Position numbers and translations under genes: made by a program. Positions 3 to 52,958 of a stretch of 64,000 nucleotides of DNA are shown here, one piece after another. Source of the DNA: Candidatus Bathyarchaeota archaeon (GTDB taxonomy: Archaea > Thermoproteota > Bathyarchaeia > Bathyarchaeales > SOJC01); assembly GCA_026014805.1 (NCBI GenBank), contig JAOZHR010000010.1, forward strand, positions 1 through 64,000. The letters are read 5' to 3'. The notes below the pieces were generated by a model. That model made no database searches. It was not told where the DNA came from and saw nothing but the letters and a program-made list of their open reading frames with translations. Position 1 is the first letter of the stretch. The number at the start of each line of letters is the position of its first letter.

Positions 3-1691
3 TGGAACCTACTGATCCGGGATGAGAAGGTTTCTGGAATTATCGATTTTGGTGATATAGTTTATTCACCTTTGATTAATGAATTAGCAATCGCCATTAC
101 CTATGCCATTTTGGGAAAATCTAAACCCACAGAATGGGCTTGTCATATGATAAAAGCATATAATGAAATATTGCCATTAGAAAAGAAAGAACTTGAACTA
201 CTCTATTACCTAATTGCAGCCCGTTTATGCACAAGTGTATGCAACTCGGCTTACAACAAGATTCAAAACCCTGATAACAAATACATCATCGTTAGTGAAA
301 GGCCTGCATGGGAAATGTTAGAGAAATGGATTTCCATCAGCCCTATTCAGGCGACAAACGAATTCAAAAGGTCAGCAGGTCTAAAGGCAAAGGTCTACCT
401 GGATACTGAAACAGACTTGAAAAGAAGATGGAGGTACATCAGCAAGTCGCTTTCGGTAAGCTATTCACAGCCTATTAAGATGGTGAAAGCTGCATTCCAA
501 TATATGTACGATGCCAGTGGCAAAACCTATCTTGATGCCCGAAACAACATACCTCATGTAGGTCACTGCCACCCCAAAGTGGTTCAAGCCGGTCAAAGGC
601 AGATGGCTTTACTGAACACAAATACCCGCTACCTATATGATCAACTGAATGATTATGCGGAACAGTTGCTCGCAAAATTTCCTGAGCCACTAAATAAGGT
701 GTTTTTCGTAAACTCTGGCAGTGCAGCAAGTGACCTTGCCATCCGTTTAGCCTACACACATACTCGTTACCAAAAGATTATGGCTGTTGAACATGGCTAT
801 CATGGTAACACAAAAATAGGTATTGACATTAGTCCTTACAAATTCGAAGGTAAAGGAGGTGAAGGCCCAGCCTCTTACATCCTCAAGGCGCCTATTCCTG
901 ACACTTATAGAGGACCATACAAGAACAATGACGGGGAAGCAGGAAAACTGTACGCACATGAGGCAATCAATCTTCTTAATAAGAGTGGCAAAGATGTTGC
1001 CGCATTTATCTGTGAACCGGTGATTGGTTGTGGCGGTCAAGTGCCACTACCCAAAGGCTATTTGAAGGGAGTTTACCGTGCCATCAGGGCACAGGGGGGT
1101 GTATGTATATCCGATGAGGTTCAAACAGGATTTGGACGCTTGGGAGAACACTTCTGGGGTTTTCAAATGCAAGGTGTCGTGCCAGACATTGTGGTTCTTG
1201 GCAAGCCTATGGGTAATGGTCATCCACTTGCTGCTGTGGTCTCGACCGATGATGTAGCACGATCTTTTGAAAATGGTATAGAATTCTTCAGTTCGTATGG
1301 TGGAAATCCAGTATCCTGTGCTATTGGCCTAGCTGTTCTTGAAGTAATCGAAGAGGAAGAATTGCAGAAAAATGCCTTGGAAACGGGTAGCTACCTGAAG
1401 CAGAAATTAAGTGCTCTCATAAAGAGTTATCCTGAAATAGGAGATATTAGAGGCTTCGGATTTTTCTTGGGCATTGAGTTTGTTAAGGATCGAGATACAT
1501 TGGAACCACACACGAAGTTAGCAGGATATGTGAAGAATCGATTTAGAGAAAATGAAATTTTGGTGGATACAGATGGTCCTCACGAAAACGTAATCAAGAT
1601 CAAACCACCCATGTGCTTCAACAAAAGGAATGCGCAACAGTTGATTGATGAATTAGAAAAAGTACTCGATACATATCCTAACAATAACTAA
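3..1691 (+). CDS. Kinase (APH-type) / class III aminotransferase fusion, 5' end outside window
   Basis: The reading frame is open to the left edge, so the gene is partial. The first visible residues carry the end of an aminoglycoside-phosphotransferase-like kinase fold: NLLI followed by SGIIDFGD, the Mg-binding aspartate motif of that family. From about base 400 a complete class III PLP aminotransferase follows, with [10 protein letters not shown], the cofactor-binding DEVQTGFGR near base 1114 and the PLP lysine in GKPMGNGHP near base 1204. Fusions of this order occur in the AGXT2L/ethanolamine-phosphate phospho-lyase branch, where the kinase would phosphorylate a small amino alcohol that the PLP domain then acts on. 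That substrate is inference. The TTG at 72 lies inside the kinase domain and is not the true start. Confidence 0.88.
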
Positions 1692-2030: not shown

Positions 2031-4409
2031 GTGAAGGCTGTGGTGACGAACAATAGAATCGAGAAGCTTTGGAAGCAGAGTGTAGATACTGTCCCTTTCA
2101 TAGACCCTGAGAGGGCTGTACTTATTACAGATTTCTACCGAAGCGAATTTGCTAAGGGCCTGTCTGGGCCAGTTCTCCGAGCCCTAGCCTACAAACGTGT
2201 TTTGGAACACAAGACCTTGTACATAGAAGAGGGAGAGCTGCTAGTGGGAGAGAAGGGCAGAAGTCCAAGAGCTGTCCCCACATACCCCGAGTTGTGTTGC
2301 CATTCTCTTCAGGATCTGGATATACTTGAGTCACGCTCCGTGACACCTTATCGTGTTAGTAGGAAGACTAGAAAGATCTATGAGGAATATGTAATTCCCT
2401 TCTGGAATGGCAGGGATCTGAGAAGCAGGGTATTTCGCTCTGTGCCCGAGGAGTGGAAGAGGGCTTTCAGAGCGGGCGTTTTCACTGAGTTCATGGAGCA
2501 GAGATCACCCGGACATGCAATAATGGATGACAAGATATATCGCCTGGGATTGACCGATTTCAAGAGGCTGATAGAGGAACGCCGGAAAAGGCTGGATTTT
2601 GTGAATGACCCTAGTTCCTACGATAAGGAACAAGAGCTGCAGGCCATGGAGATATGCTGTGACGCAGTCGTCAGCTTCGCATCCAGACATGCTCAACTGG
2701 CAAAGGCGATGGCGAGAAAAGAGAGAAACCCCAAGAGGAGAAGAGAACTCAAAAAAATCACTGAAGTGTGCAGCAGGGTTCCGGCGTATGCTCCCCGAAC
2801 CTTTTGGGAAGCACTACAGATGTACTGGTTTGTCCATCTCGGTGTCACCTTGGAGGTTAACACTTGGGATTCCTTCAATCCAGGAAGACTGGATCTCAAC
2901 CTGTACCCCTTCTACAGAAGGGACATAGAAGAAGGTCGACTGACCAGAGATGAGGCAAAAGAGCTGCTGAAGTGCTTCTGGATCAAGTTCTCCAACCAAC
3001 CAGCCCCGCCGAAAGTAGATGTGACAATGGAGCAGAGTGCAACATACCAGGACTTCGCCACCCCCAACCTAGGAGGAGTTGACAAGTATGGGAACGATGC
3101 AGTTAACGAGCTCTCTTATCTAGTCCTTGAGGTTGAAGACGAACTTCGAGTCATGCAACCAAACACCTGCGTTCAAATAAGCAGCAGAAACCCGGATAGG
3201 TTTCTGGAGAAGGCTCTCAAGATAATCAGAACAGGGCACCCTAAACCTTCGATATTCAACACAGACATAATAACACAAGAGCAACTCCGCCAGGGCAAAA
3301 CCATAGAGGAAGCCAGACTGGGCGGCCCAAGCGGCTGCGTGACCATAAGCGCTTTCGGAAAGGAAACCACGGTGCTAACGGGCTACCTGAATTGGGTGAA
3401 AATCCTTGAGATTACACTGAACAATGGGGTGGATCCGCGAACAAAGGAAAGAATCGGCATTGAAACAGGGAACCCTGCAGGTTTCCAGTCCTTCGATGAA
3501 GTCATTGAAGCCTACAAGAAACAACTGAAGCACATTGTGGACCTCAAGATAGCGGGTAATAACATAATCGAAAGAATCTTCGCAAAACACATGCCTGTGC
3601 CCTTCCAATCCGTGCTCATCGACAACTGCATCGAGACCGGCAAGGACTACAATGACGGCGGCGCAAAATACAACACGAGTTACATACAGGGAACAGGACT
3701 GGGCACCCTCACTGACTGTCTCACGGCAATCAAATATCATGCTTTTGACCGAAAAGACATTGATTTCAAAAAGCTCCTGAAAGCATGTAGAGACAACTTC
3801 AAAGGCAGATACGAGATAATCCGTCAGATTCTTCTCAACAAGACCCCGAAGTATGGCAACGACGACGACTATGCAGATAGTATCGCAAGGGAACTCGTTG
3901 AAATCTACTTTGAAGCGGTGGATGGCAGGCCCAACACAAGAGGAGGAAAGTACAGGATAAACTTGCTCCCGACAACGGTCCACATCTATTTCGGGAAACT
4001 GTGTGGTGCCACTCCCGACGGCAGAAAGGCTGAACAGCCCATATCAGAGGGTGTTTCGCCGACTCAAGGGGCAGACAGGGAAGGACCAACAGCAGTCATG
4101 AAATCAGTGACTAAATGGGACCATACGAAAACAGGGGGCACTCTCCTAAACATGAAATTCTCACCGCAGGTACTAAAAACCGAGGAAGACCTTCAGAAGA
4201 TCGTGTGCCTCATCCGAACATTCTTCAGGCTTGGTGGGCACCACGTTCAGTTCAACATAGTTGACAAGGAAACGCTCCGCGACGCCCAACGCGACCCTGA
4301 AAGCTACAGAAATCTTCTTGTGCGTGTGGCCGGCTACAGCGACTTTTTCGTAGGCCTACACAAGGAACTTCAAGATGAAATCATATCAAGAACAGAACAC
4401 AGACTATAG
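2031..4409 (+). CDS. Glycyl radical enzyme (PFL-like), substrate unknown
   Basis: At 792 residues it has both signature sites of the pyruvate-formate-lyase superfamily. The thiyl cysteine is in GPSGCVT (Cys436) and the glycyl radical site is in RVAGYSDFF (Gly768, 25 residues from the C-terminus). The N-terminal half matches the PFL domain of the dehydratase, decarboxylase and X-succinate synthase types. Choline lyase, glycerol dehydratase and HypD have Cys-Val-Glu (GCVE), where the Glu is the general base; here it is Cys-Val-Thr, which argues against a simple dehydratase or C-N lyase. Its activase follows 75 bases downstream on the same strand. GTG is the first start after an in-frame TGA at 2025. 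The enzyme would be oxygen-sensitive and cytoplasmic. Confidence 0.9.
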   Translation: MKAVVTNNRIEKLWKQSVDTVPFIDPERAVLITDFYRSEFAKGLSGPVLRALAYKRVLEHKTLYIEEGELLVGEKGRSPRAVPTYPELCCHSLQDLDILESRSVTPYRVSRKTRKIYEEYVIPFWNGRDLRSRVFRSVPEEWKRAFRAGVFTEFMEQRSPGHAIMDDKIYRLGLTDFKRLIEERRKRLDFVNDPSSYDKEQELQAMEICCDAVVSFASRHAQLAKAMARKERNPKRRRELKKITEVCSRVPAYAPRTFWEALQMYWFVHLGVTLEVNTWDSFNPGRLDLNLYPFYRRDIEEGRLTRDEAKELLKCFWIKFSNQPAPPKVDVTMEQSATYQDFATPNLGGVDKYGNDAVNELSYLVLEVEDELRVMQPNTCVQISSRNPDRFLEKALKIIRTGHPKPSIFNTDIITQEQLRQGKTIEEARLGGPSGCVTISAFGKETTVLTGYLNWVKILEITLNNGVDPRTKERIGIETGNPAGFQSFDEVIEAYKKQLKHIVDLKIAGNNIIERIFAKHMPVPFQSVLIDNCIETGKDYNDGGAKYNTSYIQGTGLGTLTDCLTAIKYHAFDRKDIDFKKLLKACRDNFKGRYEIIRQILLNKTPKYGNDDDYADSIARELVEIYFEAVDGRPNTRGGKYRINLLPTTVHIYFGKLCGATPDGRKAEQPISEGVSPTQGADREGPTAVMKSVTKWDHTKTGGTLLNMKFSPQVLKTEEDLQKIVCLIRTFFRLGGHHVQFNIVDKETLRDAQRDPESYRNLLVRVAGYSDFFVGLHKELQDEIISRTEHRL

Positions 4410-4484
4410 AAGAAACAAGGTGGTCTAAGGTTTGAGCATAAGCTTCCCGTAAAACGTAGCTCCACAAACTATGAAGCAGGGTGA

Positions 4485-5387
4485 ATGGATATGGCTGAAG
4501 GACTAATCTTCGACATCAAAAGATATGCCATACACGATGGCCCCGGCATACGCACAACAGTGTTCTTCAAAGGGTGCCCTCTCTCCTGTTGGTGGTGCCA
4601 TAACCCCGAGGGACAATCCTTCAGCCCGGAACTCATGGTTTGGCCAGACAGATGCTTAAAATGTCGGACATGCATATCAGCTTGCCCCAATTCAGCGATC
4701 TCCATTTCGAATAGCTCAATTGTCATTGAACGTGGAAAATGCGAAGTCTGCGGCGTTTGCGCTGCGAAATGCTCTGCAAATGCAAGGGAGATCGTGGGGA
4801 AAACAGTGTCAGCAGAAGAGGTGATGGCGGAAGTTGAGAAGGACCGCGCATTCTACGGAGAATCTGGTGGCTTGACCGCGTCTGGCGGTGAACCACTCGC
4901 TCAACCTGTCTTTCTGCACGTCCTCTTGAACAGATGTAAGGAAACAGGCATCCACACGACAGTGTACACAAGTGGCTACATGGAGAGGAAAACCTTGGCC
5001 AAGATTAGCAGTAAGGTAGATCTGTTCCTCTACGACCTGAAAATGATGGACCCCAAAAAACACAAACTGCATACAGGGGTCTCCAACAAGCCAATTATCG
5101 AGAACCTGAAAATGCTAGACAAGCTTGGCAAGCAGATAATCATTCGCTTTCCACTAATCCCCAGCGTCAATAGCACCAAAGCCAACATAAGCACTATGTG
5201 CGAGCTAGTCTCCGGATTGAGAAATATCAGAAGGATCAGCGTCCTTCCGTACCATAAACTTGGAGTTGACAAAGCCAAGAGACTAGGTAAAGAGGTAAGG
5301 ATTTTTGCAAAACCATCGGATAGAATGCTGGATCAAAGCCTGAGACTAATCAAGAGTTATGGCTTCGTCGTCAACGTAGGAGGATAA
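4485..5387 (+). CDS. Glycyl-radical enzyme activating enzyme (radical SAM)
   Basis: This 300-residue radical SAM protein installs the glycyl radical on the enzyme encoded just upstream. The SAM-cluster motif CPLSCWWC follows the leader IHDGPGIRTTVFFKG, typical of PFL-activase-like enzymes. An inserted bacterial-ferredoxin-type segment with two CxxCxxCxxxCP-like clusters (CLKCRTCISACP and CEVCGVCAAKCS, residues about 50-95) is the hallmark of activases for non-PFL glycyl radical enzymes. The SAM-binding ASGGEPL motif is present near residue 129. AGGGTGA at 4478-4484 abuts ATG 4485; ATG 4491 has better spacing and may be the real start. It is probably co-transcribed with the enzyme. Confidence 0.92.
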   Translation: MDMAEGLIFDIKRYAIHDGPGIRTTVFFKGCPLSCWWCHNPEGQSFSPELMVWPDRCLKCRTCISACPNSAISISNSSIVIERGKCEVCGVCAAKCSANAREIVGKTVSAEEVMAEVEKDRAFYGESGGLTASGGEPLAQPVFLHVLLNRCKETGIHTTVYTSGYMERKTLAKISSKVDLFLYDLKMMDPKKHKLHTGVSNKPIIENLKMLDKLGKQIIIRFPLIPSVNSTKANISTMCELVSGLRNIRRISVLPYHKLGVDKAKRLGKEVRIFAKPSDRMLDQSLRLIKSYGFVVNVGG

Positions 5388-7473: not shown

Positions 7474-8952
7474 TTAAGGTGTGTATTTGAAGGGGTGCTT
7501 CGACCGGTCTTTATTCTCCGTAACCTCATCTGCCGATGGTCTTCCCTCAACGGCTCTTCGAATAGCGTGCCGCATAGCCTTGTAATTATTAATGTACACT
7601 CTTTGCCGATTAACCGCTGACGGATGTACGAAAACGTTCGCAATAATAATCAAATCCTCCGCAGCCCCTTTTGGAATGCTGCCATCCGCCAAACTGTCCG
7701 CGACTGCTTTAGCCACGCCGGCCTGCGCCGGACCATAAATCATACTCGCCTGCCGCATGTTCTTAATCGTCACCGTGGGAACCATCAATGTAACAGGCTT
7801 TACCAAAACATTGGGCTCCAGAATAGCTACAAGCGCCTCATGTCCAGAAGTCGGATTCGCCTTAGCCCTCGCATATGCCTCACCCACAGGACCGTCTTTC
7901 TTGCCAATCATCAGGTCGATATGCGCCACTTCCGCATCCTTCCCAGCCAAAGCCTCACCCACACGCAGCTTGAAATCATGAATTACTTCAGGCATTACGT
8001 GAACAGCCGTAAACCTTTCTTCCAAAGCTTTCTCCTCAACCTCAAACGTAACTGGTTTAGCCTTTATCTTGCCAATCTTCTCCAAATCCAGCCGCAACTC
8101 CTCCCTCGCCTCATACGTAAGCTCACCGCCAACGCTAAGCGGCAATCTTACACGCCCAACCTTAATTCCTATCATGTTCAAAGCCTCCTTAGTGCCCACC
8201 GCGCCACTCTGAGCCGTAATCCTTGCGATTTTCTGAACCTTATACTGCAGCTCACGAGCCCTCTGTAAATCGCCCTTTTGTACGTTGTCGTAGATTTCAA
8301 TCCAAATGTCAGGAATGAAGTTGGCGCTTGCTAGGATTGCTCCGCTGGCTCCAGCAGCCAAAGCCGCCATAACCACCTCGTCATGACCACACATCACGTT
8401 AATTTTGTCGCGAACCTTCTCTAAAACTGCCAAAATGAAGCTAAGTTGCCCGCTGCTGTCTTTGACGCCGACTATGTTGGGTATCTGCGCGAGGTCTTCC
8501 ACCATCTGCCATGGCAAAGGTAGTCCGGTGCATTGAGGTATGTTGTAGAGGATTAAGGGTAAATCCACCTTAGACGCAATAGTGAAATAGTGCTCGTAAA
8601 TTCCTCTGCTGGTAGGCTTTAAGTAGTAAGGTGTCACAATTAAAGCTGCGTCAGCACCCGCATCCTTTGCATACTTTGTCATCTCTAACGCTTGCTCGGT
8701 TCCGCTTGCTCCGGTACCTGCCACAACAGAAACTCTGCCGTTAACCGCGTCAACAACAACGTCAATAACACGCTTCCTTTCCTCGATAGTCATGTTTATG
8801 AACTCACCAGTAGTCCCACACGGAACAACACCGCTAACGCCAAGCTCAATACAGTGATTAACAAGCACACGAATTTGCTCTTCATCAACCTGCTTTCCAT
8901 CATCAGTAAAAGGCGTCACTAAAGCAGGCATGATCCCTTTAGGTTCGAACAT
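7474..8952 (-). CDS. Fusion of DapA-family aldolase and formaldehyde-activating enzyme (Fae)
   Basis: The N-terminal 290 or so residues are a DapA/N-acetylneuraminate-lyase-family TIM barrel: CGTTGE, the catalytic tyrosine in LYNIP (Tyr136) and the Schiff-base lysine in GVKDSSG (Lys164). The arginine that follows this tyrosine motif in true dihydrodipicolinate synthase is absent (YNIPQCTG), so lysine biosynthesis is unlikely. Residues about 325-492 are a complete Fae domain. They include EVAHIDLMIG with the conserved His344, GPAQAGVA, and the SKHPF end. Fae condenses formaldehyde with tetrahydromethanopterin. Fusion suggests the aldolase releases or consumes an aldehyde passed to Fae. ATG 8952 has AAAGGAG 9 bases upstream; the TTG at 8961 abuts that site and is less likely. 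Confidence 0.92.
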   Translation of the reverse strand: MFEPKGIMPALVTPFTDDGKQVDEEQIRVLVNHCIELGVSGVVPCGTTGEFINMTIEERKRVIDVVVDAVNGRVSVVAGTGASGTEQALEMTKYAKDAGADAALIVTPYYLKPTSRGIYEHYFTIASKVDLPLILYNIPQCTGLPLPWQMVEDLAQIPNIVGVKDSSGQLSFILAVLEKVRDKINVMCGHDEVVMAALAAGASGAILASANFIPDIWIEIYDNVQKGDLQRARELQYKVQKIARITAQSGAVGTKEALNMIGIKVGRVRLPLSVGGELTYEAREELRLDLEKIGKIKAKPVTFEVEEKALEERFTAVHVMPEVIHDFKLRVGEALAGKDAEVAHIDLMIGKKDGPVGEAYARAKANPTSGHEALVAILEPNVLVKPVTLMVPTVTIKNMRQASMIYGPAQAGVAKAVADSLADGSIPKGAAEDLIIIANVFVHPSAVNRQRVYINNYKAMRHAIRRAVEGRPSADEVTENKDRSKHPFKYTP

Positions 8953-9062: not shown

Positions 9063-9124
9063 TACTCACATTATAACGCAACACAAAGCGCCACTAAAAG
9101 TCATTAGAAAACTTGGAGGAGCAT

Positions 9125-10411
9125 GTGTTGAACAACCTCAAACAAAAATTGAGAATCAAGGAAGAAAACCTAAAGAAAATTAACGATTTCCTTCTGAAAG
9201 AAGACAACCCTCTTGTGGATAATTTACTGAAAATTATTGAAAAATATGGCAGTGTCGAAGAGATTAACCGAAAGGCTCGAGAAGCACGTAAACTCGAAAA
9301 CCTCATGGGTCAACTAAAGGCAAAGAACTCGCCCTTTGTGAAAGATCTTGAGTGGCTTATTGAACAACGGGACAAAGATGCTTTTATCAGCATTCCCAAT
9401 TATCGCAGGAAAATTCTAGGAGATAAAGCCGATTCTATGTCGTTCGATGAGTTATTTGCTGTCACCCTTGAAATCAGCGCGTGCAACTTTTTCCCTTGGG
9501 TTATAGAAGAAGCAAAAAAAGCCATTGCACAGCAGGACCTTATGCCCAGTCGCTTTATTCGCGTCCGTTCCATGAAAGAGCAAGTTGAAGACAATGAAAT
9601 CTTGGCGTTTGCAGCAGCAATGCAGATTGTAGGCGCTTCGTACGTGGAAACGTTAGATACGAAGGGAACTCTGCCTGGACCTGACGGCTTGCCCATCAAC
9701 GTTCACTTAGGTGGACCCGAGACTATCACCGGATATTTTGGCGGTGTCGGGATGCCAAACGAATACGCTTTGAAGTGGGTTGATGAATTTCTGCACTATT
9801 ACACTGAATACGGCATTCGACAGGTGTTGAATATAAACATAGGAAGCGTAATGCTGGGATACTGGCTCCACAAGCTTGGAATCGACATCGAATTCAAGAT
9901 TTCAGTATTTCTGGGCAACGACAATCCTTACTCTTGCTTCTGGACACTAATGACCGCTAAACTCTTCAGTCGTAACGATGGCACAAGCCCACTAATAGGC
10001 TTCAATCTTTCGAATGCCGTCAATAACGAGACAATTGAAATTTCAGCCTATATACGAAAAGATTTCGAATTTGAAGACATTGTGCGCATTGAACATCACA
10101 TCGTAGAAACTTACAAGAGCATTGTCAGACAGCCATACAACCGACTTGACGAACTTCTGGAAATCGCAGACCATGTGAAGAACATTAGTGCCAAACATGA
10201 AGGCGGGTTGCTCGAAGTTGAGAAAGGCCGGGAACACCCGTCCGACGTCTTGGAATATTTTGTCCCCAAAAAGGACATTCTTGCGCAGAATTTGATGCCG
10301 AAACTAACAATTAATTATCTTGATAAGCATGACTCGATGAATAGAACTGCTAAAGCCCTCACCGAGCGAGGCTTAACCTTCATCGCCGCTCAGAAACTGC
10401 ACAAGAAATAG
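9125..10411 (+). CDS. Conserved-looking soluble protein of unknown function, beside DapA-Fae
   Basis: About 429 residues with no signal peptide or membrane segment. The first 70 residues are highly charged and helical. The rest has the alternating hydrophobic pattern of an alpha/beta (possibly barrel) enzyme, with glycine-rich loops (LPGPDGLPINVHLGGPE and GYFGGVGMPNEYA) and paired histidines (RIEHHIVE). I do not recognise the family. GGAGGAG at 9115-9121 favours GTG 9125 or TTG 9128 over the TTG at 9113. Divergent transcription from the DapA-Fae fusion hints at a role in the same aldehyde or one-carbon pathway, but this is inference from position only. Confidence 0.8.
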   Translation: MLNNLKQKLRIKEENLKKINDFLLKEDNPLVDNLLKIIEKYGSVEEINRKAREARKLENLMGQLKAKNSPFVKDLEWLIEQRDKDAFISIPNYRRKILGDKADSMSFDELFAVTLEISACNFFPWVIEEAKKAIAQQDLMPSRFIRVRSMKEQVEDNEILAFAAAMQIVGASYVETLDTKGTLPGPDGLPINVHLGGPETITGYFGGVGMPNEYALKWVDEFLHYYTEYGIRQVLNINIGSVMLGYWLHKLGIDIEFKISVFLGNDNPYSCFWTLMTAKLFSRNDGTSPLIGFNLSNAVNNETIEISAYIRKDFEFEDIVRIEHHIVETYKSIVRQPYNRLDELLEIADHVKNISAKHEGGLLEVEKGREHPSDVLEYFVPKKDILAQNLMPKLTINYLDKHDSMNRTAKALTERGLTFIAAQKLHKK

Positions 10412-38786: not shown

Positions 38787-39626
38787 TCAGTACTCTTTCG
38801 GCATCATCGCAAGTTCTTTGTAGGCGAAGACCGGGCCATCTTTGCACACAAACTTGTCTCCTATGTTACACCTTCCACACTTTCCGATGCCACACTTCAT
38901 CCTCATCTCGAGGGATAGAAATACTTCCTCGGGAGGGAAGCCGAGCTCGTTAAGAACTGGCATGGTGAACTTTATCATTATGGGTGGACCGCAGACAATT
39001 GCGATAGCGTTCTCTGAGCTTGGAGCGGTCTCCTTGAGAACGGCCGGGACAAAGCCCACTAATCCAGTCCAGCCAGGAACAGCTCTGTCTATGGTCACGT
39101 TAAGGTTAATATCATCCCTCTTTCCCCAAGCTTCAAGGTCGTATTTATAGGCGAGTTCACCTGGGTTGCGGGCTCCGTAGATAACTGTTAAGCCTCTGAA
39201 CCTATCTCTGTTGACTTCGTGAAGAATGAATTTTGTTAGAGACCTTAGCGTTGTGAAAGCGAAGCCTCCTCCGACAATGACAACATTGCGGCCTTCCATT
39301 CTCTCCAGTGGGAACCCGTTGCCGTATGGTCCTCTGACCCCTATTACTGTTCCCTCTTCGCAGTTGTGCAGGGCTGTGGTCACAACCCCGACCTTTTTAA
39401 TGGTGAACTGGATGTAACCTTCGTCCATGGGCGATGAGGCTATACCTAAGGGACATTCTCCGGCGCCGAAGACAGAAATCTCTGCGAACTGGCCACATCT
39501 GTACTTGAACTTCTTCATCGCTTCTGGATCTTGGAAAACAAGCTCAAACGTCTTTATGTCATTCACTTCATTTTCTGTTGTGATTTTTCTGATGACCGCA
39601 AGGTTTGGGATGTACGGATTACTCAT
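38787..39626 (-). CDS. flxA: FlxA-like FAD/NAD(P)-binding oxidoreductase subunit
   Basis: A 279-residue ferredoxin-NADP-reductase-fold protein. It has an FAD domain (RCGQFAEISV, then GEGTVIGVRGPYGNGFPLE-like loop), a nucleotide domain (VVIVGGGFAF, IVCGPPIMIK) and a C-terminal iron-sulfur site CGIGKCGRCNIGDKFVC. It resembles sulfhydrogenase gamma, anaerobic sulfite reductase B and FlxA. It would pass electrons between NAD(P)H and the Fe-S subunits encoded upstream. It is the last gene of the long leftward operon, 3 bases after flxB. Confidence 0.9.
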   Translation of the reverse strand: MSNPYIPNLAVIRKITTENEVNDIKTFELVFQDPEAMKKFKYRCGQFAEISVFGAGECPLGIASSPMDEGYIQFTIKKVGVVTTALHNCEEGTVIGVRGPYGNGFPLERMEGRNVVIVGGGFAFTTLRSLTKFILHEVNRDRFRGLTVIYGARNPGELAYKYDLEAWGKRDDINLNVTIDRAVPGWTGLVGFVPAVLKETAPSSENAIAIVCGPPIMIKFTMPVLNELGFPPEEVFLSLEMRMKCGIGKCGRCNIGDKFVCKDGPVFAYKELAMMPKEY

Positions 39627-39629
39627 TCT

Positions 39630-40667
39630 CTACTTCACCTGTCTGGTCGATATTGCTTTAGTTATTTCTCTGATGTCAAGGTTAACAGGACACTCCCGGA
39701 CGCATCTTCCACAGCCTACGCAAAAGCTTTCGCCGAAGTTCTTGACGAAGTAGCTGAACTTGTGCATGATCCTCTGCCTCATCCTCTCCTTTCCCGAAGG
39801 TCGAGGGTTATACCCAGAACCCTGTAGTGTGAAGCAGGAGAACTGGCATGAGTCCCAGATCCTAACTCTTTTCCCTCCATCCCCTTCTTCATCCAGAACG
39901 TCGAAGCAGCAGCAAGTGGGACAAAGGAAAGTGCAAATTCCACAGCCCAAGCACTTCTGATATATCTGGTCCCACAATGGGTCGTCAAACATTCTATCAA
40001 GCTTCTGGCTCACGCCCTTAACAGAAACCTTAGATCTCACGGCAGTTTCAGCCTCTTCGGAGAGCTTCTTCGCCTTCTCTATGTCAGCTTTTTCTGCGTC
40101 CTTCAACCACGGAAACTTCTCAACGAGTTTCTCGCCTCTTTCAGTGACTGTTTCTATCAGATACTTGTCGTTTATGTCTTGGAGAAGCAGGTCCATACCC
40201 TCTTTTCCGAATGGACGCCCTCCAAGAGACGTGCAGAAGCATGTGCTTAGAGGATGATTGCACGCTAACCCGAACATGGTTGTGTTCTTCCTCTTCTCTA
40301 GGTAGTACAAGTCTTTGTGTTCTCCAGAGGAAAAGAACTTGTCCAGCAAAACGAAGCTTCTGGCATCGCAGGGGCGGACGCCTAACAGCACCCTCTTTCC
40401 CTTTACGATAAGAGCCTCCTCTATTTCTACGCCTTTTTTACCTATCCTATGGATGAACAGAGTCTCAGTCTGTGGAAAGAAAACCTCCTTGGGAGGCTTC
40501 TTTGTGTTCCGGAAGTCTAGGTAGGCTTCGCGTCCTTGGGAGAGTCTTTCAAAAAAGACTATGTTTTTTTCTTTGACTGGCACGAAAACATCGTGTTCTT
40601 CAGTCAGTTCCCCAAGGAGGATGGGGAATTTGCTCTTTTCTATGACCTTCCACTTCATTGTAAGCAC
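39630..40667 (-). CDS. flxB: FlxB-like 4Fe-4S subunit
   Basis: A 345-residue protein of the sulfhydrogenase-beta / anaerobic sulfite reductase A kind. The N-terminal domain has VLLGVRPCDARSF and GLACNHPLSTCFC. Two 4Fe-4S clusters lie in the C-terminal half, CLGCGICTFLCPTCCC (about residue 237) and CVGCGRCVRECPVNL (about residue 317). It forms an electron relay between FlxA and the HdrA side. It begins 6 bases after flxC. Confidence 0.88.
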   Translation of the reverse strand: MLTMKWKVIEKSKFPILLGELTEEHDVFVPVKEKNIVFFERLSQGREAYLDFRNTKKPPKEVFFPQTETLFIHRIGKKGVEIEEALIVKGKRVLLGVRPCDARSFVLLDKFFSSGEHKDLYYLEKRKNTTMFGLACNHPLSTCFCTSLGGRPFGKEGMDLLLQDINDKYLIETVTERGEKLVEKFPWLKDAEKADIEKAKKLSEEAETAVRSKVSVKGVSQKLDRMFDDPLWDQIYQKCLGCGICTFLCPTCCCFDVLDEEGDGGKRVRIWDSCQFSCFTLQGSGYNPRPSGKERMRQRIMHKFSYFVKNFGESFCVGCGRCVRECPVNLDIREITKAISTRQVK

Positions 40668-40673
40668 CCTGTT

Positions 40674-41624
40674 TCACTTAATGAACTCCTGAGAATCCTC
40701 CATTTTGAACTCTCCCAACGGGGGGACCTCTTCAAGGCTGACTCCTGCCTCGTAGTTGTACCGTTCTTTCATAATCTTTTCAGTTTTTTTCACGAGCTCC
40801 CTCAGGTTTATATCCATTGGGCAAGCTCGACTGCAGGCTCCGCAATCGACGCATCTCCCGGCTATGTGGAAGGCACGGACGATGTGGTATATCATAGTAT
40901 CCGAGATATCATTTGTCTTGCCGAACCAAGCGGGCATTGTCTGGTCGACGAAGCACATCTTGCAATAGCAGAGGGGACAAATGTTTCTGCAAGCGTAGCA
41001 TCTGATGCACTTGCCTAGTTCCTCCTTAAAATGGTCCCACCTCTCTTCCACTGACTTCGACTCGAGGCTAGAAACTTCAGCGAACTCGTTCACTTCCGTG
41101 GTTTCAGGCACCTTCTCTCCCACAAATACATCGTAGATAGGTGGATTCTTGTGTCCGCAGGTTAGACACGAGTCGCAGAGGAAAACGTTTTTCGGTAAAA
41201 CAAGCTCGAAACCTTCTCCCTTAACCTTGATCTGTTCATCTTTAACGACGGCTTCGAGGACCTCCCTATCGCCGAGTTTCGCCTTTATCTTTTTCCTGTC
41301 AATGACACCTAGGCAAGGGACACCTATTATGACTACATTTTCCCTGGGAAACTGCTTCTCTATCGCACAAACCGCTATCAACCGTGCGTCGCAACCCTTT
41401 GCAATAACACCTACTTTTTCCTTTCTATCTACCACGTATTTTGAAAGGCTGGCGTCGCAACTTGCGTTCCAAACAAGCTTTTTAATGCTCTCTACTTTGT
41501 CCACAAAGCAGGGAGTCGTGCGAAGAGGCAGGGTTCCTCGCTCATATCCGATTATCAGGTCGACCTTCTTCTCGCTGAGAAGCTTTTCCGCGACCTCTCT
41601 TATCGAATTTTCAAGGTTTTCCAT
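40674..41624 (-). CDS. flxC: FlxC-like 4Fe-4S subunit
   Basis: A 316-residue protein with an N-terminal region related to the FrhB/FdhB fold (VGVIAKGCDARLIAV, VIIGVPCLGVID), a CDSCLTCGHKNPP zinc- or Fe-S-like motif, then two clusters CIRCYACRNICPLCYC (about 206) and CVDCGACSRACPMDI (about 260). Position between flxB and flxD and the domain order match the FlxABCD set of Desulfovibrio. It begins 6 bases after flxD. Confidence 0.85.
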   Translation of the reverse strand: MENLENSIREVAEKLLSEKKVDLIIGYERGTLPLRTTPCFVDKVESIKKLVWNASCDASLSKYVVDRKEKVGVIAKGCDARLIAVCAIEKQFPRENVVIIGVPCLGVIDRKKIKAKLGDREVLEAVVKDEQIKVKGEGFELVLPKNVFLCDSCLTCGHKNPPIYDVFVGEKVPETTEVNEFAEVSSLESKSVEERWDHFKEELGKCIRCYACRNICPLCYCKMCFVDQTMPAWFGKTNDISDTMIYHIVRAFHIAGRCVDCGACSRACPMDINLRELVKKTEKIMKERYNYEAGVSLEEVPPLGEFKMEDSQEFIK

Positions 41625-41630
41625 ACAGCA

Positions 41631-42059
41631 CTACCTCTTCACCAGTCTTTTGGCAGGCCCTAGGGCATCCACCTTTTCTACCATGTCCGTCACGACCTTA
41701 GCAAACTTTTCACCTTCAGCAGCGGAGACCCATGAGAAGTTTACCCTTCTAGGCTCAATCCCGAGGTATTCCAGTAGGTCTTTCAGAACAGCGAATCTTC
41801 TTCGGGCCACGAGGTTTCCGCTAATGTAGTGGCAGTCTCCTGGGTGGCATCCTGAGACTAAGACTCCGTCCCATCCACGCTGAAGGGCTTTTATGATAAA
41901 GTATGGGTTGACTCTTCCAGAGCAGGGGACTCGAACGACCCTTATGTTAGGGGGATACTGCATTCTGCTTATTCCAGCAAGGTCTGCTCCAGCGTAACTG
42001 CACCAGTTGCACAGGAACGCTAGTATTTTCGGGGGCCATTGTTTTTCTGCAGGTTTCAC
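41631..42059 (-). CDS. flxD: FlxD / MvhD-type delta subunit
   Basis: A 142-residue protein of the MvhD family: LAFLCNWCSYAGADLAG, VVRVPCSGRVNP, GCHPGDCHY and FSWVSAAEGEKFA. The cysteines fit the 2Fe-2S site of MvhD, which hands electrons to HdrA in methanogens. It starts 6 bases after the large HdrA and is the link between that HdrA and FlxABC. Confidence 0.93.
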   Translation of the reverse strand: MKPAEKQWPPKILAFLCNWCSYAGADLAGISRMQYPPNIRVVRVPCSGRVNPYFIIKALQRGWDGVLVSGCHPGDCHYISGNLVARRRFAVLKDLLEYLGIEPRRVNFSWVSAAEGEKFAKVVTDMVEKVDALGPAKRLVKR

Positions 42060-42065
42060 TTTTGG

Positions 42066-45000
42066 TCACCTCAACGCGTTTATGATCAAGCTCATCTGCA
42101 TGTCGGTGAAGCCCTTGATATCAATTGCTGAGCACCTGCAAGTAGCGGCGCAGGCTCCGCATCCCTTGCAAAGTGCGCTGTTCACCTTTGCTATTTTCCC
42201 CCTTTTGGTTTCTTCAATTTCTATGGCGTTGTAGGCGCATACCAGTATGCAGAGCTCGCACGCTGTGCACCTATTCGGGTTGACAGTGGCGATGATTCCC
42301 TCAGCCTCGATGGTGTCTTTCGTCAGCAGCGTACACGCTCTGGACACCGCGGCCTTCGCTTGAGAAATACTCTCTTCTATAGATTTCGGTGAGTGAGCCA
42401 TCCCGCACACGAAGATGCCTTCTGTAGCGAAGTCGACAGGGCGAAGCTTGGCGTGCGCCTCTAAGAAGAAGCCGTCTTCGTTTACGGGAACCTTCAGCAT
42501 CTTGGCTAGAGTCTCGTTTTCTTCGAGTGGAATCACGGCTGCGCTCAGAACGAGGAGATCTGCGTCTATGATGATGTCTTCTTGGATGGTTGGTTCAAAA
42601 ACTGATATCTGCAAGACTTCTTTTCCTCCTGACGCGGCCTTGGCAACCTTCGGCTTGTTTTCTTCTTCGTAGCGGATGAAGACGACTCCCGCCTCTCGAG
42701 CCCTTCTGTAGTGTTCTTCCATTAGGCCGTAGGTTCTTATGTCTCGGTACAGAATGTACACGTTAGCGTCCGGGTCTTTCTCCTTTATTTTCAAGGCGTT
42801 CTTGACTGCCTCTCCACAGCACATTCTGCTACAGTATGGGTGTTCGTCATTCCTAGACCCTACGCATTGGATCATCACCATGTTCCCGAACTTTTCGTTG
42901 CCAGCAGTGGCGATTGTATTCTCCAATTCCAACTGCGTCAATATACGGCGGTCCTTTCCATAGAGGTACTCATTCGGGTGGTGTTCTTCGCCTCCGGTAG
43001 CCACGATGATGACTCCGTGATCTAGCTCCTTTTTCGCTTCGCTGCCCGAGTTTATGGTTACAGTGGTTTTGAAGTTTCCCACGTAGCCGGAGACGTTCTC
43101 GACCTTTGCGTTAAGGAAGACTTGGATCAGCTTGTTCGAGTTTACCTTTTCAATAATGGTTCTTAGGTACTCTTGGGTGTCGTCGTTGTCCAACGTGTAG
43201 TATATTTTGCGCAGGAAGCCTCCAAGCTCATTGTTCTTTTCTACCAAGTCAACTTCAAAGCCTTGTTCGGCTAAGGCTAGAACCGCGGTCATTCCGGCCA
43301 ATCCTCCCCCGATGACGAGGCCTCGGCGGGTGACCCCCAGAGAAAGCCTTTCTAAGGGCTCCAGCATTCTAGCCTTCGCCACAGCCATTCTCACCAGATC
43401 CTTCGCCTTCTCGGTAGCGGCTTCAGGATTGCGCATGTGCACCCAGGAACATTGGTCGCGGATGTTCGCCATCTCGAAGAGATACCTGTTTAAGCCAGCT
43501 GCCTTTATCGTTTCTTGGAAGAGAGGTTCATGGGTTCGGGGTGAACATGAGGCCACTATAACTCTGTTTAGTTCGTATTCTTGGATTCTCTTCTTGATTA
43601 TCTCTTGAGTGTCTGAGGAGCATGTGTAGAGGTTTTCGCAGGCGTAGACAACGTTCGGGAGAGTCTGAGCATAATCCACAACGCTTGGAACGTCTACAAT
43701 CCCTCCAATGTTGATGCCGCAGTAACATATGAAAACCCCTATTCTGGGAGGCTGACCTCTAACATCCAGCTCTTTTGGATATTCCTTCTTCTTGACCAGG
43801 GTTCCTCGAACAGAAGAGAGCAATTCGCCCACACTGGTAGCGGCGGCGCTGGCCTGAGTAACGGTTTCAGGAATATCCTTTGGTGATGAGAACATGCCAC
43901 AGACGAAAACTCCAGGCCTAGAGGTTTCCAACGGATGAAAAGGTTGGGTTTTACAGAAACCGTGCTCGTTCAGCTCAACACCGAGGCTTTTAGCTAGCTT
44001 CTTAACGTTCTCGGATGGTGTAAAGCCGACCGATAGGACGACTAGGTTGAACTCTTCTTCGTGGAGCCTTCCGTCTTCGGTTTCATACCGTATCCTCAGG
44101 TTTTGAGTTTTGGGTATCTCCTTTACTTCGGACACCCTACACCTGACAAACCTTAATCCGTACTCGTTCTTAGCTCTCTCAATATACTTGTCGAAGTCCT
44201 TCCCGTAGGCCCGCAGGTCTATATAGAAGATAGTGGGTTCAATCTGGCTCATGTGCTCTCTGGCTATAACCGCCTCCTTCGTGGAGTACATGCAGCAAAC
44301 CGAAGAGCAGTAGCCGTTTCCACACGTGACATCTCTAGAGCCGACGCACTGTATGAAGGCAATTTTCCTAGGGATATCTCCGTCTGAAGGCCTCTGTACA
44401 CGCCCCAGGAAGGGGCCAGAGGCACTCAGGATGCGCTCGAACTCGATACTCGTGACCACGTTGGGGTATCTTCCGTAACCGTACTCACTCTTCAACCTGG
44501 CGTTAAACTCTTCAACGCCGGGGGCTAGAATGACAGCGCCAACATTCAGCCTAACTTCTTTCTCTTGATCCGAGTAGTTTATAGCGTCGGCCAGACAAAC
44601 GTTTTTACAGAGCCCACAGCCTACACACTTTTCCCTATCGATCATGTACACCAAGGGAACGGCTTGCGGGTAGTTGATGTGAATCGCCGTTCTCTCACTC
44701 AAGCCTTTGTTGAAGGTGTCTATGGCGTCAACTGGACAGAACTTGGCGCACACCCCACACCCTGTGCACTTCTCGATGTCAACGTATCTCGGTCGTTGTC
44801 TCACTGAGACGTTAAAGTTGCCTACCTCTCCAGAAATCTCGGTGACTTCGGAGCAGGTCAAAACCTCAACGTTCAGGTGTCTTCCGCATTCCACAAGCTT
44901 TGGGGACAGAATGCACATGGAGCAGTCGTTGGTTGGAAAGGTTTTGTCCAGCTGCGCCATGACTCCGCCTATAGCCGAGGAGTTGTCCAATACGTAAACT

Positions 45001-45116
45001 TTGAAACCTGACTCGGCTAGGTCAAGTGCAGCCTGTATCCCTCCAATCCCCCCACCTACAACTAGCACTGAACCCACCTTGCTGGTTTCAGAAACCGGGT
45101 TTTGCAAATTCACCAT
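42066..45116 (-). CDS. hdrA: Double-length HdrA-like electron-bifurcating flavoprotein
   Basis: About 1016 residues made of two HdrA modules in tandem. The first half lacks the N-terminal Fe-S domain and has an FAD site (VVGGGIGGIQAAL, about 22) and clusters CTGCGVCAKFCP (about 122) and CVGCGLCKNVC (about 165). From about 460 a complete HdrA begins (FICYCGINIGG), with its own FAD site (VIGGGLAGMTAV, about 605) and clusters CTACELCILVC and CKGCGACAATC near the end. HdrA bifurcates electrons between ferredoxin and the heterodisulfide site. ATG 45116 has GGAG about 9 bases upstream and avoids overlap with the previous gene. The same two halves exist as separate genes upstream. Confidence 0.92.
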   Translation of the reverse strand: MVNLQNPVSETSKVGSVLVVGGGIGGIQAALDLAESGFKVYVLDNSSAIGGVMAQLDKTFPTNDCSMCILSPKLVECGRHLNVEVLTCSEVTEISGEVGNFNVSVRQRPRYVDIEKCTGCGVCAKFCPVDAIDTFNKGLSERTAIHINYPQAVPLVYMIDREKCVGCGLCKNVCLADAINYSDQEKEVRLNVGAVILAPGVEEFNARLKSEYGYGRYPNVVTSIEFERILSASGPFLGRVQRPSDGDIPRKIAFIQCVGSRDVTCGNGYCSSVCCMYSTKEAVIAREHMSQIEPTIFYIDLRAYGKDFDKYIERAKNEYGLRFVRCRVSEVKEIPKTQNLRIRYETEDGRLHEEEFNLVVLSVGFTPSENVKKLAKSLGVELNEHGFCKTQPFHPLETSRPGVFVCGMFSSPKDIPETVTQASAAATSVGELLSSVRGTLVKKKEYPKELDVRGQPPRIGVFICYCGINIGGIVDVPSVVDYAQTLPNVVYACENLYTCSSDTQEIIKKRIQEYELNRVIVASCSPRTHEPLFQETIKAAGLNRYLFEMANIRDQCSWVHMRNPEAATEKAKDLVRMAVAKARMLEPLERLSLGVTRRGLVIGGGLAGMTAVLALAEQGFEVDLVEKNNELGGFLRKIYYTLDNDDTQEYLRTIIEKVNSNKLIQVFLNAKVENVSGYVGNFKTTVTINSGSEAKKELDHGVIIVATGGEEHHPNEYLYGKDRRILTQLELENTIATAGNEKFGNMVMIQCVGSRNDEHPYCSRMCCGEAVKNALKIKEKDPDANVYILYRDIRTYGLMEEHYRRAREAGVVFIRYEEENKPKVAKAASGGKEVLQISVFEPTIQEDIIIDADLLVLSAAVIPLEENETLAKMLKVPVNEDGFFLEAHAKLRPVDFATEGIFVCGMAHSPKSIEESISQAKAAVSRACTLLTKDTIEAEGIIATVNPNRCTACELCILVCAYNAIEIEETKRGKIAKVNSALCKGCGACAATCRCSAIDIKGFTDMQMSLIINALR

Positions 45117-45147
45117 TTTGGCATTCTCCAGTTGTCGAATTTTTCTC

Positions 45148-45930
45148 TCACCCTCCCGTCCTGCGGTACTTCGGGCTGTTTCCTTCAATTCCCACGACAG
45201 AGACTAATCCGTCGCGCTCAAGAGAGACCATATTTCTCAGTACTTCCCTCGGTGAAGCTTCCACTCTCTGGGCAATCTCTTTGACAGAAAGAGCGTCTTC
45301 TTCCATGGAAAGGAGAATTCTTCTTTTTGCAAACTCCTTTTCGATTGTTTGGAGCGTCAGTTGGTCGAACTTTTCTTGTGACACCTTCTCTCCGAAGACG
45401 TTCTTGTCCTCTACGAGTTCTCTTTCTCTGCCCACAAGCCATCTAATTCTCTCCTGGGCAAGGACTTCCCTGGCTGCGACTAAGCATGTCTTTAACTCTT
45501 GGGATTCCATGTCTGTTTCTTTGCCAAGTCGGCCCAATTTCTTTACCCTCTCTGTAAAATTTTTCACCAGAGTTGCGAAACGTTCACCCTCAGCCGCAGA
45601 CACCCAATCGACCAGCAATCGGTCAGGAGATAACCCTACATTTTTCAGAACTTTTTTAGTCGTCTTCATTCTTCTCTCCGCGTAGTAGTTTCCAGTCATG
45701 TAGTGACAGGTTCCTAAGTGGCAACCCAGAACCATGACACCGTCCAGCCCTCGGATGAATACTTCTAGGACGATGGTTGGGTCAACCCTTGCTGAGCACA
45801 TCACTCTGATAATTCTGATGTTTGAAGGGTACTGAAAACGGCTGACTCCAGCCAGGTCTGCGCTGGCGTAGGAACACCAGTTGCAGAGAAATCCGAGGAT
45901 GTCTGGTTCAAAGCTTTCTTTGAAGGTCAA
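45148..45930 (-). CDS. MvhD-type subunit fused to a winged-helix domain
   Basis: A 260-residue protein. Residues 1-140 are a full MvhD domain (FLCNWCSYASADLAG, VMCSARVDP, GCHLGTCHY, VDWVSAAEGERFA). A charged helical linker follows to about residue 205. The C-terminus is a winged helix: LSVKEIAQRVEASPREVLRNMVSL, then RDGLVSVVG and a wing ending KYRRTGG. MvhD is normally a 140-residue electron carrier. The added DNA-binding-like domain could sense the redox state of the complex and regulate the operon, or simply be a structural adaptor. It lies between the split hdrA pair and the fused hdrA. Confidence 0.9.
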   Translation of the reverse strand: MTFKESFEPDILGFLCNWCSYASADLAGVSRFQYPSNIRIIRVMCSARVDPTIVLEVFIRGLDGVMVLGCHLGTCHYMTGNYYAERRMKTTKKVLKNVGLSPDRLLVDWVSAAEGERFATLVKNFTERVKKLGRLGKETDMESQELKTCLVAAREVLAQERIRWLVGRERELVEDKNVFGEKVSQEKFDQLTLQTIEKEFAKRRILLSMEEDALSVKEIAQRVEASPREVLRNMVSLERDGLVSVVGIEGNSPKYRRTGG

Positions 45931-47600
45931 GGTTTCACCTCAGTTAGGGGAATTACTTGAGCGAGGAGTTGCTCATCTGTGAAGTGCTGCATGGTGATCG
46001 CCTTTTGAGGGCAGCCAGCTCCGCATGCCCCGCACCCCTTGCAGGAAGCGGCTATCACCTTGGCTTTTCTCCCTTTCTCGATCTCTTCGACTTGTATCGC
46101 TTTGAAGGGGCAGGTCAGCTCGCACAAGCTGCAGCCTGAGCATTCGTCCTCATTAACCAGAGGGATTAGGGGCTCAGTTTTCACATGTCCAACTGCCATA
46201 GGTATGGACGCTCGAGAAGCTGCGCCATACGCTTGGGAAATGCTCTCGCCGACATTGGCTGGCCAGTGGGCGCAACCGCATACATAGATGCCGTCCGTAG
46301 CGAAGTCGACAGGTCGAAGTTTCACGTGGGCCTCTAGGAAGAAACCGTTCTCATCCACAGGCACTTTCAGTTTCTGTGCGAGGTCTCTGGAGTCGTTGTG
46401 AGCAACCATGGGGGTCGACAGTACAACGAGGTCATAAGGCAGGATGAGTTCTTCGCCTAAAAGCTCATCATAAACTCTCACCGATCCGTTCTCGAGGACT
46501 GGCTGCCTTTCTGGCGAGTGTTTTATGAACGTTATGCCGGTTCCTCTCGCTTTCCCATAGTAATCCTCGTATTTTGTTCCTGGGGTCACTATATCTCTGT
46601 AGAGCACGAAAACTTGAGCGTCTGGGTTAGCTTCTTTGATCAGCATGGCGTTTTTGAGGGCGGTTGGACAGCAAACTTTAGAGCAGTAAGCTCTTTTTTC
46701 GTTTCTCGACTCTACGCATTGAATCATCACAACAATGTCAGCGTTGAGCCTTCCTTCCTTCAGCATTCGTTCCAGTTCCATCTGGGTGATAACGTGTTCT
46801 CCATCGTAGGCATATATGCCCACGGGCTTGAGCGTATCAGCCCCTGTTGCCACTATGATCACTCCGGCCTTGAATAACTTCTCCTTTTCTCCTTGCTTTA
46901 CTGTTACATCATAGTTGCCCACGAATCCTTTAACTTCTTTAACTTCGGAAGATGTCAAAATCTCTATCTTCGGGTTATTCTTAAGCTTCTCCGCTTTCGC
47001 TTGAACCCACTTTGAGGCTTCCTCGTGCGTTGGGTAAAGCTTGTAGAGGCTGTTTAGAGTCCCGCCTAGCCGGTCCTCCTTCTCCACCAGCTTCACCTCA
47101 AAGCCTCGGTTGGCTAGGCTTAGCGCACAAGTCATTCCCGCAATTCCTCCACCAATCACCAAAGCGCACGGATTGACCTCAACCTCAGTCTCTTCCAAAG
47201 GCTCTAGCAGCCCCGCTCTCGCGACTCCCATCCTTATGAGGGCTTTCGCCTTTTCGGTTGCCCTCTCCCTTTCTTGCATGTGAACCCAAGAGCACTGGTC
47301 CCGTATGTTGACGAACTGAAAGAGGTAGGGGTTCAGTCCTGCCTCCTTGCAGGTGGACCTGAACAGGGGCTCGTGGGTCCTAGGAGTGCAAGAAGCTACG
47401 ACCACCCGGTTAAGTTTGTTTTCGACTATGGCATTTTTTATTTCTGTCAATCCGGCATCAGAGCATGTATACTGATTGCCCTTCGCGAAAACAACATAAG
47501 GCAAACTCAATGCGTATTTGGCGAGTCCCGGAACGTCCAAGAACCCTCCTATGTTTGTGCCGCAGTGACAGACGAAAACGCCAACTCTTACTTCATTCAA
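45927..47600 (-). CDS. hdrA: HdrA-like protein, complete module (equivalent of the second half of the fused HdrA)
   Basis: A 557-residue HdrA. It begins with the N-terminal Fe-S domain (VFVCHCGTNIGGFLDVP, VASCTPRTHEPLF, NIRDQCSWVHM), then an FAD site VIGGGIAGMTCAL. Cys-rich VESRNEKRAYCSKVCC and two C-terminal clusters CSGCSLCELTCP and CKGCGACGAGCP follow. It is collinear with the C-terminal half of the double HdrA downstream. TTG start with GGTGA 7 bases upstream; overlaps the next gene by 4 bases. Confidence 0.92.
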   Translation of the reverse strand: MNEVRVGVFVCHCGTNIGGFLDVPGLAKYALSLPYVVFAKGNQYTCSDAGLTEIKNAIVENKLNRVVVASCTPRTHEPLFRSTCKEAGLNPYLFQFVNIRDQCSWVHMQERERATEKAKALIRMGVARAGLLEPLEETEVEVNPCALVIGGGIAGMTCALSLANRGFEVKLVEKEDRLGGTLNSLYKLYPTHEEASKWVQAKAEKLKNNPKIEILTSSEVKEVKGFVGNYDVTVKQGEKEKLFKAGVIIVATGADTLKPVGIYAYDGEHVITQMELERMLKEGRLNADIVVMIQCVESRNEKRAYCSKVCCPTALKNAMLIKEANPDAQVFVLYRDIVTPGTKYEDYYGKARGTGITFIKHSPERQPVLENGSVRVYDELLGEELILPYDLVVLSTPMVAHNDSRDLAQKLKVPVDENGFFLEAHVKLRPVDFATDGIYVCGCAHWPANVGESISQAYGAASRASIPMAVGHVKTEPLIPLVNEDECSGCSLCELTCPFKAIQVEEIEKGRKAKVIAASCKGCGACGAGCPQKAITMQHFTDEQLLAQVIPLTEVKP

Positions 47601-47607
47601 GCTCTTT

Positions 47608-50026: not shown

Positions 50027-50161
50027 GTTAACCAAGCCTTAGAATGTTAGTATAATTTTGTACCATTATTTAGGAATTTCTTATTTGCAAATTGGAGAAC
50101 AATAGATATAAAGCAGCGGTGTAAACGTATAGCTTCTCATGAAGTCTCGGAGAGATTCAAG

Positions 50162-51514: not shown

Positions 51515-51596
51515 GCAGAATCTCCAGTAGGCACTGACCGCGACATTCAAGGCTAATCACGCCCAAAGAAGTTAGAAACTTTAGAAGGCTGAATGA

Positions 51597-52067
51597 ATGA
51601 AAGTTGGCACATACAACATCCCTGAAAACCTTTATTACATTAAAGAACACGAGTGGATCTTAATGGAGGATACTGGCACCGCGAAAATTGGCATCACAGA
51701 TTACGCTCAGAAAGCGCTAAGGGAGATTACATACTTTTACGTAGAGAAGAGAGGTGTTGAAGTCAAACGGATGGAGACAATCTGCAAAATAGAGTCAGTA
51801 AAATGTGTTGCTGAGATAATGAGCCCCCTTTCGGGCGTGGTTGTCAGATTCAATAACGGACTAATTGACAACCTAGCCATAATAAACAATGACCCTTACG
51901 GCAAAGGTTGGATGGCAATTATCCGCCCTACGAACTTTGACAAGGAGCTAGAAAAATTATTAAAACCAGAACTTTACGCCAAGCACATTAAAGAACTTAC
52001 CAAAATTGACGAAACTTTATTGATTTATAGATGGAAAAAAGGAGCAAAGAAAAAAACGGACGAATAA
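51597..52067 (+). CDS. H-protein-like lipoyl carrier within the Hdr region
   Basis: A 156-residue relative of GcvH. YYIKEHEWILMED, IGITDYAQKALREI, lipoylation site IESVKCVAEI with the target Lys, IMSPLSGVVVRFN and NNDPYGKGWMAII are present. Two cysteines flank the lipoyl Lys (ICKIESVKCVAE), unlike the canonical copy at 38174, and the C-terminus is longer and basic. It lies 82 bases after the flavoprotein and converges on hdrB. Lipoate-binding proteins of this fold work with sHdr complexes in sulfur-oxidising bacteria, so an Hdr partnership is plausible. Confidence 0.88.
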   Translation: MKVGTYNIPENLYYIKEHEWILMEDTGTAKIGITDYAQKALREITYFYVEKRGVEVKRMETICKIESVKCVAEIMSPLSGVVVRFNNGLIDNLAIINNDPYGKGWMAIIRPTNFDKELEKLLKPELYAKHIKELTKIDETLLIYRWKKGAKKKTDE

Positions 52068-52081
52068 GAAAAGTTCTACAC

Positions 52082-52957: not shown

Positions 52958-52958
52958 T

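Follow-up and report, generated by a model that had tools for sequence, protein, structure and literature searches.

The window, by which we mean the whole stretch of 64,000 nucleotides that was analysed, carries on its minus strand a single open frame of 492 aa that runs from an ATG at 8952, preceded by a ribosome-binding-like GGAG stretch, to a stop at 7474 (7474..8952). It encodes a DapA/DHDPS-type class I aldolase domain (8080..8943, aa 4-291; Pfam PF00701, 270.8 bits) followed by a domain of the formaldehyde-activating enzyme, Fae (7489..7962, aa 331-488; PF08714, TIGR03126, solved relative 1y5y/1y60). Between these Pfam matches lies a linker (7963..8079, aa 292-330) that is poorly conserved in an alignment of fusions. 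The Fae domain is complete, scoring 211.9 bits with PF08714 (Pfam cut-off 27) and 215.4 bits with TIGR03126 (curated NCBIfam cut-off 118.05), and the aldolase domain scores 251 bits with the curated DHDPS model TIGR00674 (NCBIfam cut-off 206.15), its nearest solved relative being 2yxg, "Dihydrodipicolinate synthase". With the model of the bifunctional formaldehyde-activating enzyme/3-hexulose-6-phosphate synthase, Fae-Hps (NF009833), the fusion scores 182.9 bits, below the cut-off of 274; neither Pfam nor NCBIfam finds an Hps domain in the protein, which thus falls outside that family. The host genome (1.79 Mb, 96.6% complete) has two matches listed at E <= 1e-20, the DapA-Fae fusion and a Fae-Hps fusion; the former is the only DapA homolog among these listed matches, and the latter contains the only other Fae of the genome. 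This Fae-Hps (L001:1255-2682, G000:C7) has about 80 extra N-terminal residues that read like a helix-turn-helix.

Beside the fusion and divergent from it, on the plus strand, is an ORF (9125..10411) for a protein, here termed partner protein X, that is predicted to be a TIM barrel outside known families. Its start is probably the GTG at 9125, which follows a GGAGGAG stretch, rather than the TTG at 9113. Within the order X is 77-87% identical; 11 of 300 genomes have it, and 10 of these also carry the fusion. At 22 Asgard loci the gene immediately upstream of the fusion, in the same orientation, encodes an X homolog, and at one of them the two genes overlap by 4 bp. At five other Asgard loci, from which X is missing, its place beside the fusion is taken by a different protein of 312-322 aa (L201:7340-8287, L202:10701-11639, L203:7087-8025, L207:2226-3194 and L208:5870-6817). 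Neither X nor this protein has a match in Pfam, NCBIfam or PDB sequences; the two families (C1 and C10) may be remote relatives, aligned by hhalign with an E of 0.0013 and a probability of 18%. AF2 models of X reached a pLDDT of 45 with 8 sequences and of 83 with 19, and in the latter model strands and helices alternate as in a TIM barrel. Used as a Foldseek query it returned only generic TIM-barrel matches, the best being class II fructose-bisphosphate aldolases, with low TM (E 2e-5, TM 0.36/0.45).

Other genes of the window are of separate note. Positions 2031-5387 (plus strand) encode a glycyl-radical trans-4-hydroxy-L-proline dehydratase (HypD; NF043068, 1190.6 bits against a cut-off of 1100) with its radical-SAM activase, which points to hydroxyproline use in an archaeon; a link between the fusion and hydroxyproline degradation was considered and discarded, since the arrangement is not conserved in relatives. 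A different glycyl-radical enzyme with an activase lies about 2 kb from the fusion at the Asgard locus L199. The ORF at 72-1691 (plus strand) encodes a class III aminotransferase (PF00202) that is extended at its N-terminus by about 110 aa and is best matched by the phosphotransferase-aminotransferase model PRK06148. A large cluster at 38787-53459 is made up of ORFs whose sequences resemble heterodisulfide-reductase, FAD and Fe-S proteins, along with a GcvH-like ORF (51597-52067).

Important for catalysis by DHDPS are a Tyr/Thr/Tyr triad, one Tyr of which comes from the neighbouring subunit, and an Arg (PMC3382604). The Schiff-base lysine of the fusion, Lys164 in a KDSSG motif (8461..8463, minus strand), and the catalytic tyrosine Tyr136 (8545..8547, minus) are invariant in 45 aligned fusions, as expected of a class I aldolase, and the lysine is equally so in 90/90 unfused relatives. 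The position of Thr47 is Thr in 42 of the 45 fusions and Ser in 3, and the GTTGE motif, which handles pyruvate in DHDPS, is kept. The arginine that binds aspartate semialdehyde in DHDPS (E. coli Arg138) is conserved in 82/90 unfused relatives and in none of the 45 aligned fusions: the alignment places Cys141 there in the window's protein (8530..8532, minus; "YNIPQCTG"), and the 27 single-copy fusions have Cys (21), Leu (3), Val (2) or Ala (1), while tandem copies, described below, have Cys or Val. In the Fae domain, alignment with canonical Fae identifies His344 (7921..7923, minus) as the counterpart of the catalytic His, invariant in canonical Fae. All 27 single-copy fusions retain the full set of residues that never vary in canonical Fae, namely E333, E341, A343, His344, G350, P355, P386, G407, P408, Q410, F441, H443, N456, H486 and P487. 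Judged by these residues, both the aldolase and the Fae active sites are intact in the fusion. An earlier note, made from the letters of the window, had described a DapA-like lyase with Tyr136 and Lys164, lacking the DHDPS arginine, joined in one frame to a full Fae domain with its conserved His344; Pfam, NCBIfam and the alignments bear out each of these features and place the gene on the minus strand.

In a 300-genome sample of the phylum, 12 genomes, the window's included, carry full-length fusions; the 11 others share 60-82% identity with it (75-82% within the order, 60-62% for two further families of the class). Scanning named genomes added one Thermoplasmatota MAG, three Thorarchaeota and one bacterial MAG of the Anaerolineae. 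Within the Asgard archaea (Thorarchaeota phylum) 67 of 148 genomes gave a match and about 64 hold the fusion, a count made by eye from the table, with some copies cut by contig ends. A FastTree phylogeny of 94 DapA domains gathers the 46 fusions into a single clade (support 0.974), and the fusion therefore arose once in the sampled set; it is widespread in Asgard and related archaea. Most of these genomes are MAGs, in which assembly gaps can mimic the absence of a gene. An artefact of assembly as the source of the fusion itself is excluded by the recurrence of full-length copies in other genomes and other phyla, and by their grouping in a single clade. The same recurrence disposes of the concern, raised in the earlier note, that the joint might lack support; close relatives did not have the two domains split, and the search across archaea which that note had advised located the fusion in the window's phylum, in Asgard archaea and in Thermoplasmatota.

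We propose that the fusion is a bifunctional enzyme through which a hydroxymethyl (formaldehyde-level) group passes between a 2-oxo acid and the C1 carrier tetrahydromethanopterin (H4MPT), a reading to which we assign a probability of about 0.45, slightly short of even odds. In the DapA domain pyruvate would form a Schiff base with Lys164, and its bond to formaldehyde would be made or broken there (4-hydroxy-2-oxobutanoate, HOB <-> pyruvate + HCHO); the fused Fae would exchange formaldehyde with methylene-H4MPT, so that the free toxic compound is kept low; the net reaction would be HOB + H4MPT <-> pyruvate + methylene-H4MPT + H2O. That the aldehyde is formaldehyde, that pyruvate acts as nucleophile and that one site hands over to the other is inferred; the 2-oxo acid pair is probably pyruvate/4-hydroxy-2-oxobutanoate. 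An aldolase for a small aldehyde is the best reading of the DapA domain: the active sites of both domains are preserved, no fusion examined has the DHDPS arginine, and the window's genome lacks the means to make aspartate semialdehyde. Against hydroxymethyl transfer stand the bacterial copy, which lacks the Fae His, and the matter of a source or sink for HOB, a compound whose description in E. coli is that of a metabolite not native to the cell (PMC8879981).

The direction of the reaction bears on a more specific claim of the earlier note, in which the aldolase releases formaldehyde from a 2-oxo acid as a different entry of one-carbon units. The small-aldehyde aldolase is upheld by the intact sites and the lost arginine; entry of one-carbon units is only one of two directions. 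Cleavage, supplying C1 units and pyruvate, is slightly favoured in the window's organism, because neither ThrB nor ThrC is above cut-off in its genome and by analogy with Fae-Hps. The loss of aspartate-semialdehyde dehydrogenase (Asd) and homoserine dehydrogenase (Hom) from fusion genomes would also suit the synthetic direction, and for G196 and similar lineages the making of HOB for homoserine is no less likely than cleavage.

The gene content of 50 genomes of the window's class, 12 with and 38 without the fusion, informs this choice. Mch, a gene of the H4MPT pathway whose presence the earlier note had asked to confirm, is found in 11 of the 12, the exception being G237 (89% complete). Homoserine dehydrogenase is absent from all 12 and present in 33/38 unfused genomes (Fisher p 5e-8, a value that ignores kinship), an absence predicted from a homoserine bypass before it was tested and then found; it is absent also from 3 of 5 fusion genomes outside the class. 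Similarly, Asd occurs in 0/10 fusion genomes of the order, the window's included, against 24/25 unfused genomes of the order. These losses argue for a rival reading that is rather unlikely overall, in which methylene-H4MPT and pyruvate would yield HOB, to be transaminated to homoserine in place of the aspartate semialdehyde/homoserine dehydrogenase route, a natural counterpart to part of the engineered "homoserine cycle". One genome bears a clear signature of such a bypass: G196 (97% complete) has the fusion and ThrB beside ThrC, without Asd or Hom. A ThrC-family protein is above cut-off in 8 of the 12, mostly a 470-500-aa paralogue, but ThrB is so in G196 alone, and with ThrB and ThrC mostly missing, the pattern would also follow if the entire branch had been lost (auxotrophy); 13 genomes that possess Hom also lack ThrB, which makes its absence weak evidence. 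Furthermore, three fusion genomes (G154, G300 and G304) do have Asd, a dedicated aminotransferase was not found, and MAG gaps can mimic such absences. For want of ThrB and ThrC in most of these genomes the simple homoserine bypass counts as a rival of hydroxymethyl transfer and not as the main reading.

The neighbours of the fusion, those outside the family-library runs being named by a reading of their sequence, appear to agree on C1/2-oxo-acid metabolism and not on one pathway. Glycine cleavage genes adjoin the fusion module in one Asgard locus, probably with a second in a close relative. In G106 a gene for a threonine/serine dehydratase-like PLP enzyme is directly downstream of the fusion, and its 75% identical ortholog lies directly downstream of mch in the window's genome (the two genes are L033:1901-2887 and L086:7622-8578). 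A uronate isomerase-like ORF directly downstream of the fusion at two Asgard loci, and FAD/Fe-S ORFs resembling 2-hydroxy-acid oxidases upstream of it at others, would suit Fae-coupled cleavage of some other 4-hydroxy-2-oxo acid, 3-substituted or derived from a sugar acid (e.g. ketopantoate or a 2-keto-3-deoxy acid other than HOB), and many DapA relatives do act on sugar acids. We consider such a substrate quite unlikely, as these contexts are few and their loci related, and the fusions keep the pyruvate-type GTTGE, not the GS-type motifs of sugar-acid aldolases. A role as the ketopantoate synthase replacing PanB is ruled out: PanB is found in 7/12 fusion genomes, separately in the window's own, and in 1/38 unfused ones. 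Since it is nearly confined to fusion genomes, most unfused relatives of the class must obtain ketopantoate another way.

Thorarchaeota, the Thermoplasmatota MAG and one further Asgard genome contain the fusion as an adjacent pair of copies, a and b, separated by at most 6 bp or overlapping. The a copies have lost His344 (9/9) and, in nearly all cases, Asp346, Phe441, His443, Asn456 and the terminal HPF, and they retain Pro380-Asn381 and Gly407-Pro408. The b copies retain His344, Asp346, Phe441, His443 and Asn456 in 9/9, and HPF in 8/9, and are without Pro380-Asn381 and Gly407-Pro408. The fusion of the Anaerolineae MAG (L088:9265-10692) is of the a type, lacking the Fae His, with no b partner on its contig. 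In the pentamer of Fae the pterin is bound between subunits. Given this arrangement and the complementary losses, the simplest reading of the pair is a heteromer that would form one composite Fae site. In 7/9 b copies Phe stands in place of the Tyr (Y110) that one DHDPS subunit contributes to its dimer partner, which suggests one working DapA site per a/b dimer. The loss of complementary invariant residues implies that Fae chemistry is under selection inside the fusion, and the pairs make it possible to test how gene duplicates may come to divide between them the active site of an oligomer.

These data also bear on whether the Fae domain might be a sensor or scaffold, binding H4MPT or aiding oligomerisation, beside an aldolase for an unrelated aldehyde. 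The a copies and the bacterial copy, having lost the Fae His, would accord with such a role, but the canonical Fae residues including His344 are invariant in 27/27 single-copy fusions and b copies keep what a copies lost, so that we hold it improbable. Finally, that the fusion is an ordinary DHDPS for lysine with an accessory Fae is scarcely credible despite its TIGR00674 score of 251 over 206 and its closest solved relatives being DHDPS, for Arg138 is lost in all fusions, the Fae residues are conserved, and the absence of Asd from 10/10 in-order fusion genomes leads us to reject it within the window's order, DHDPS activity being impossible in the window's own genome, where aspartate semialdehyde is not made.

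If hydroxymethyl transfer between a 2-oxo acid and H4MPT is correct, the fusion would be a second natural Fae-aldolase fusion, tying 2-oxo-acid chemistry directly to the archaeal C1 carrier. As so many Asgard archaea have it, the fusion matters for attempts to reconstruct how they metabolise. A broader proposal is doubtful: that archaea, many Asgard included, possess a dedicated H4MPT-coupled formaldehyde-pyruvate aldolase, with which some lineages would make homoserine from pyruvate and a C1 unit without passing through aspartate semialdehyde. The central step of a cycle known to date only from engineering would then exist in nature. Homoserine-cycle designs for methanol or formate employ promiscuous aldolases and free formaldehyde; a natural enzyme in which formaldehyde is handed to or from H4MPT would, if real, give such designs a useful component and add a branch to C1 metabolism.

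A fusion of Fae with an aldolase is already known in Fae-Hps; we found no description of Fae fused to a DapA-type aldolase in the open-access literature searched. Fae-Hps likewise joins Fae to an aldolase, is archaeal, occurs in the same genome and presumably hands formaldehyde to H4MPT, but its aldolase is Hps, acting on a sugar phosphate, and its Fae is N-terminal, whereas DapA-Fae combines a class I 2-oxo-acid aldolase with a C-terminal Fae. DapA itself (TIGR00674) shares with the fusion the fold, the Schiff-base Lys, the Tyr/Thr/Tyr residues and the GTTGE motif; the fusion differs from it by the missing aspartate-semialdehyde arginine, a host genome without Asd and the attached Fae. Ketopantoate hydroxymethyltransferase (PanB) and serine hydroxymethyltransferase each achieve the net transfer of a hydroxymethyl group between pterin and carbon acid that is proposed for the fusion, but their folds are unrelated to it and each uses a single active site where the fusion would use two. 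Another parallel to the proposed chemistry, pyruvate + formaldehyde -> HOB, is the HOB aldolase step of the synthetic homoserine cycle, where HOB formation is a promiscuous activity put to use in the engineered pathway; it is performed there by E. coli RhmA, a different aldolase, itself promiscuous and not tied to a C1 carrier (PMC8879981).
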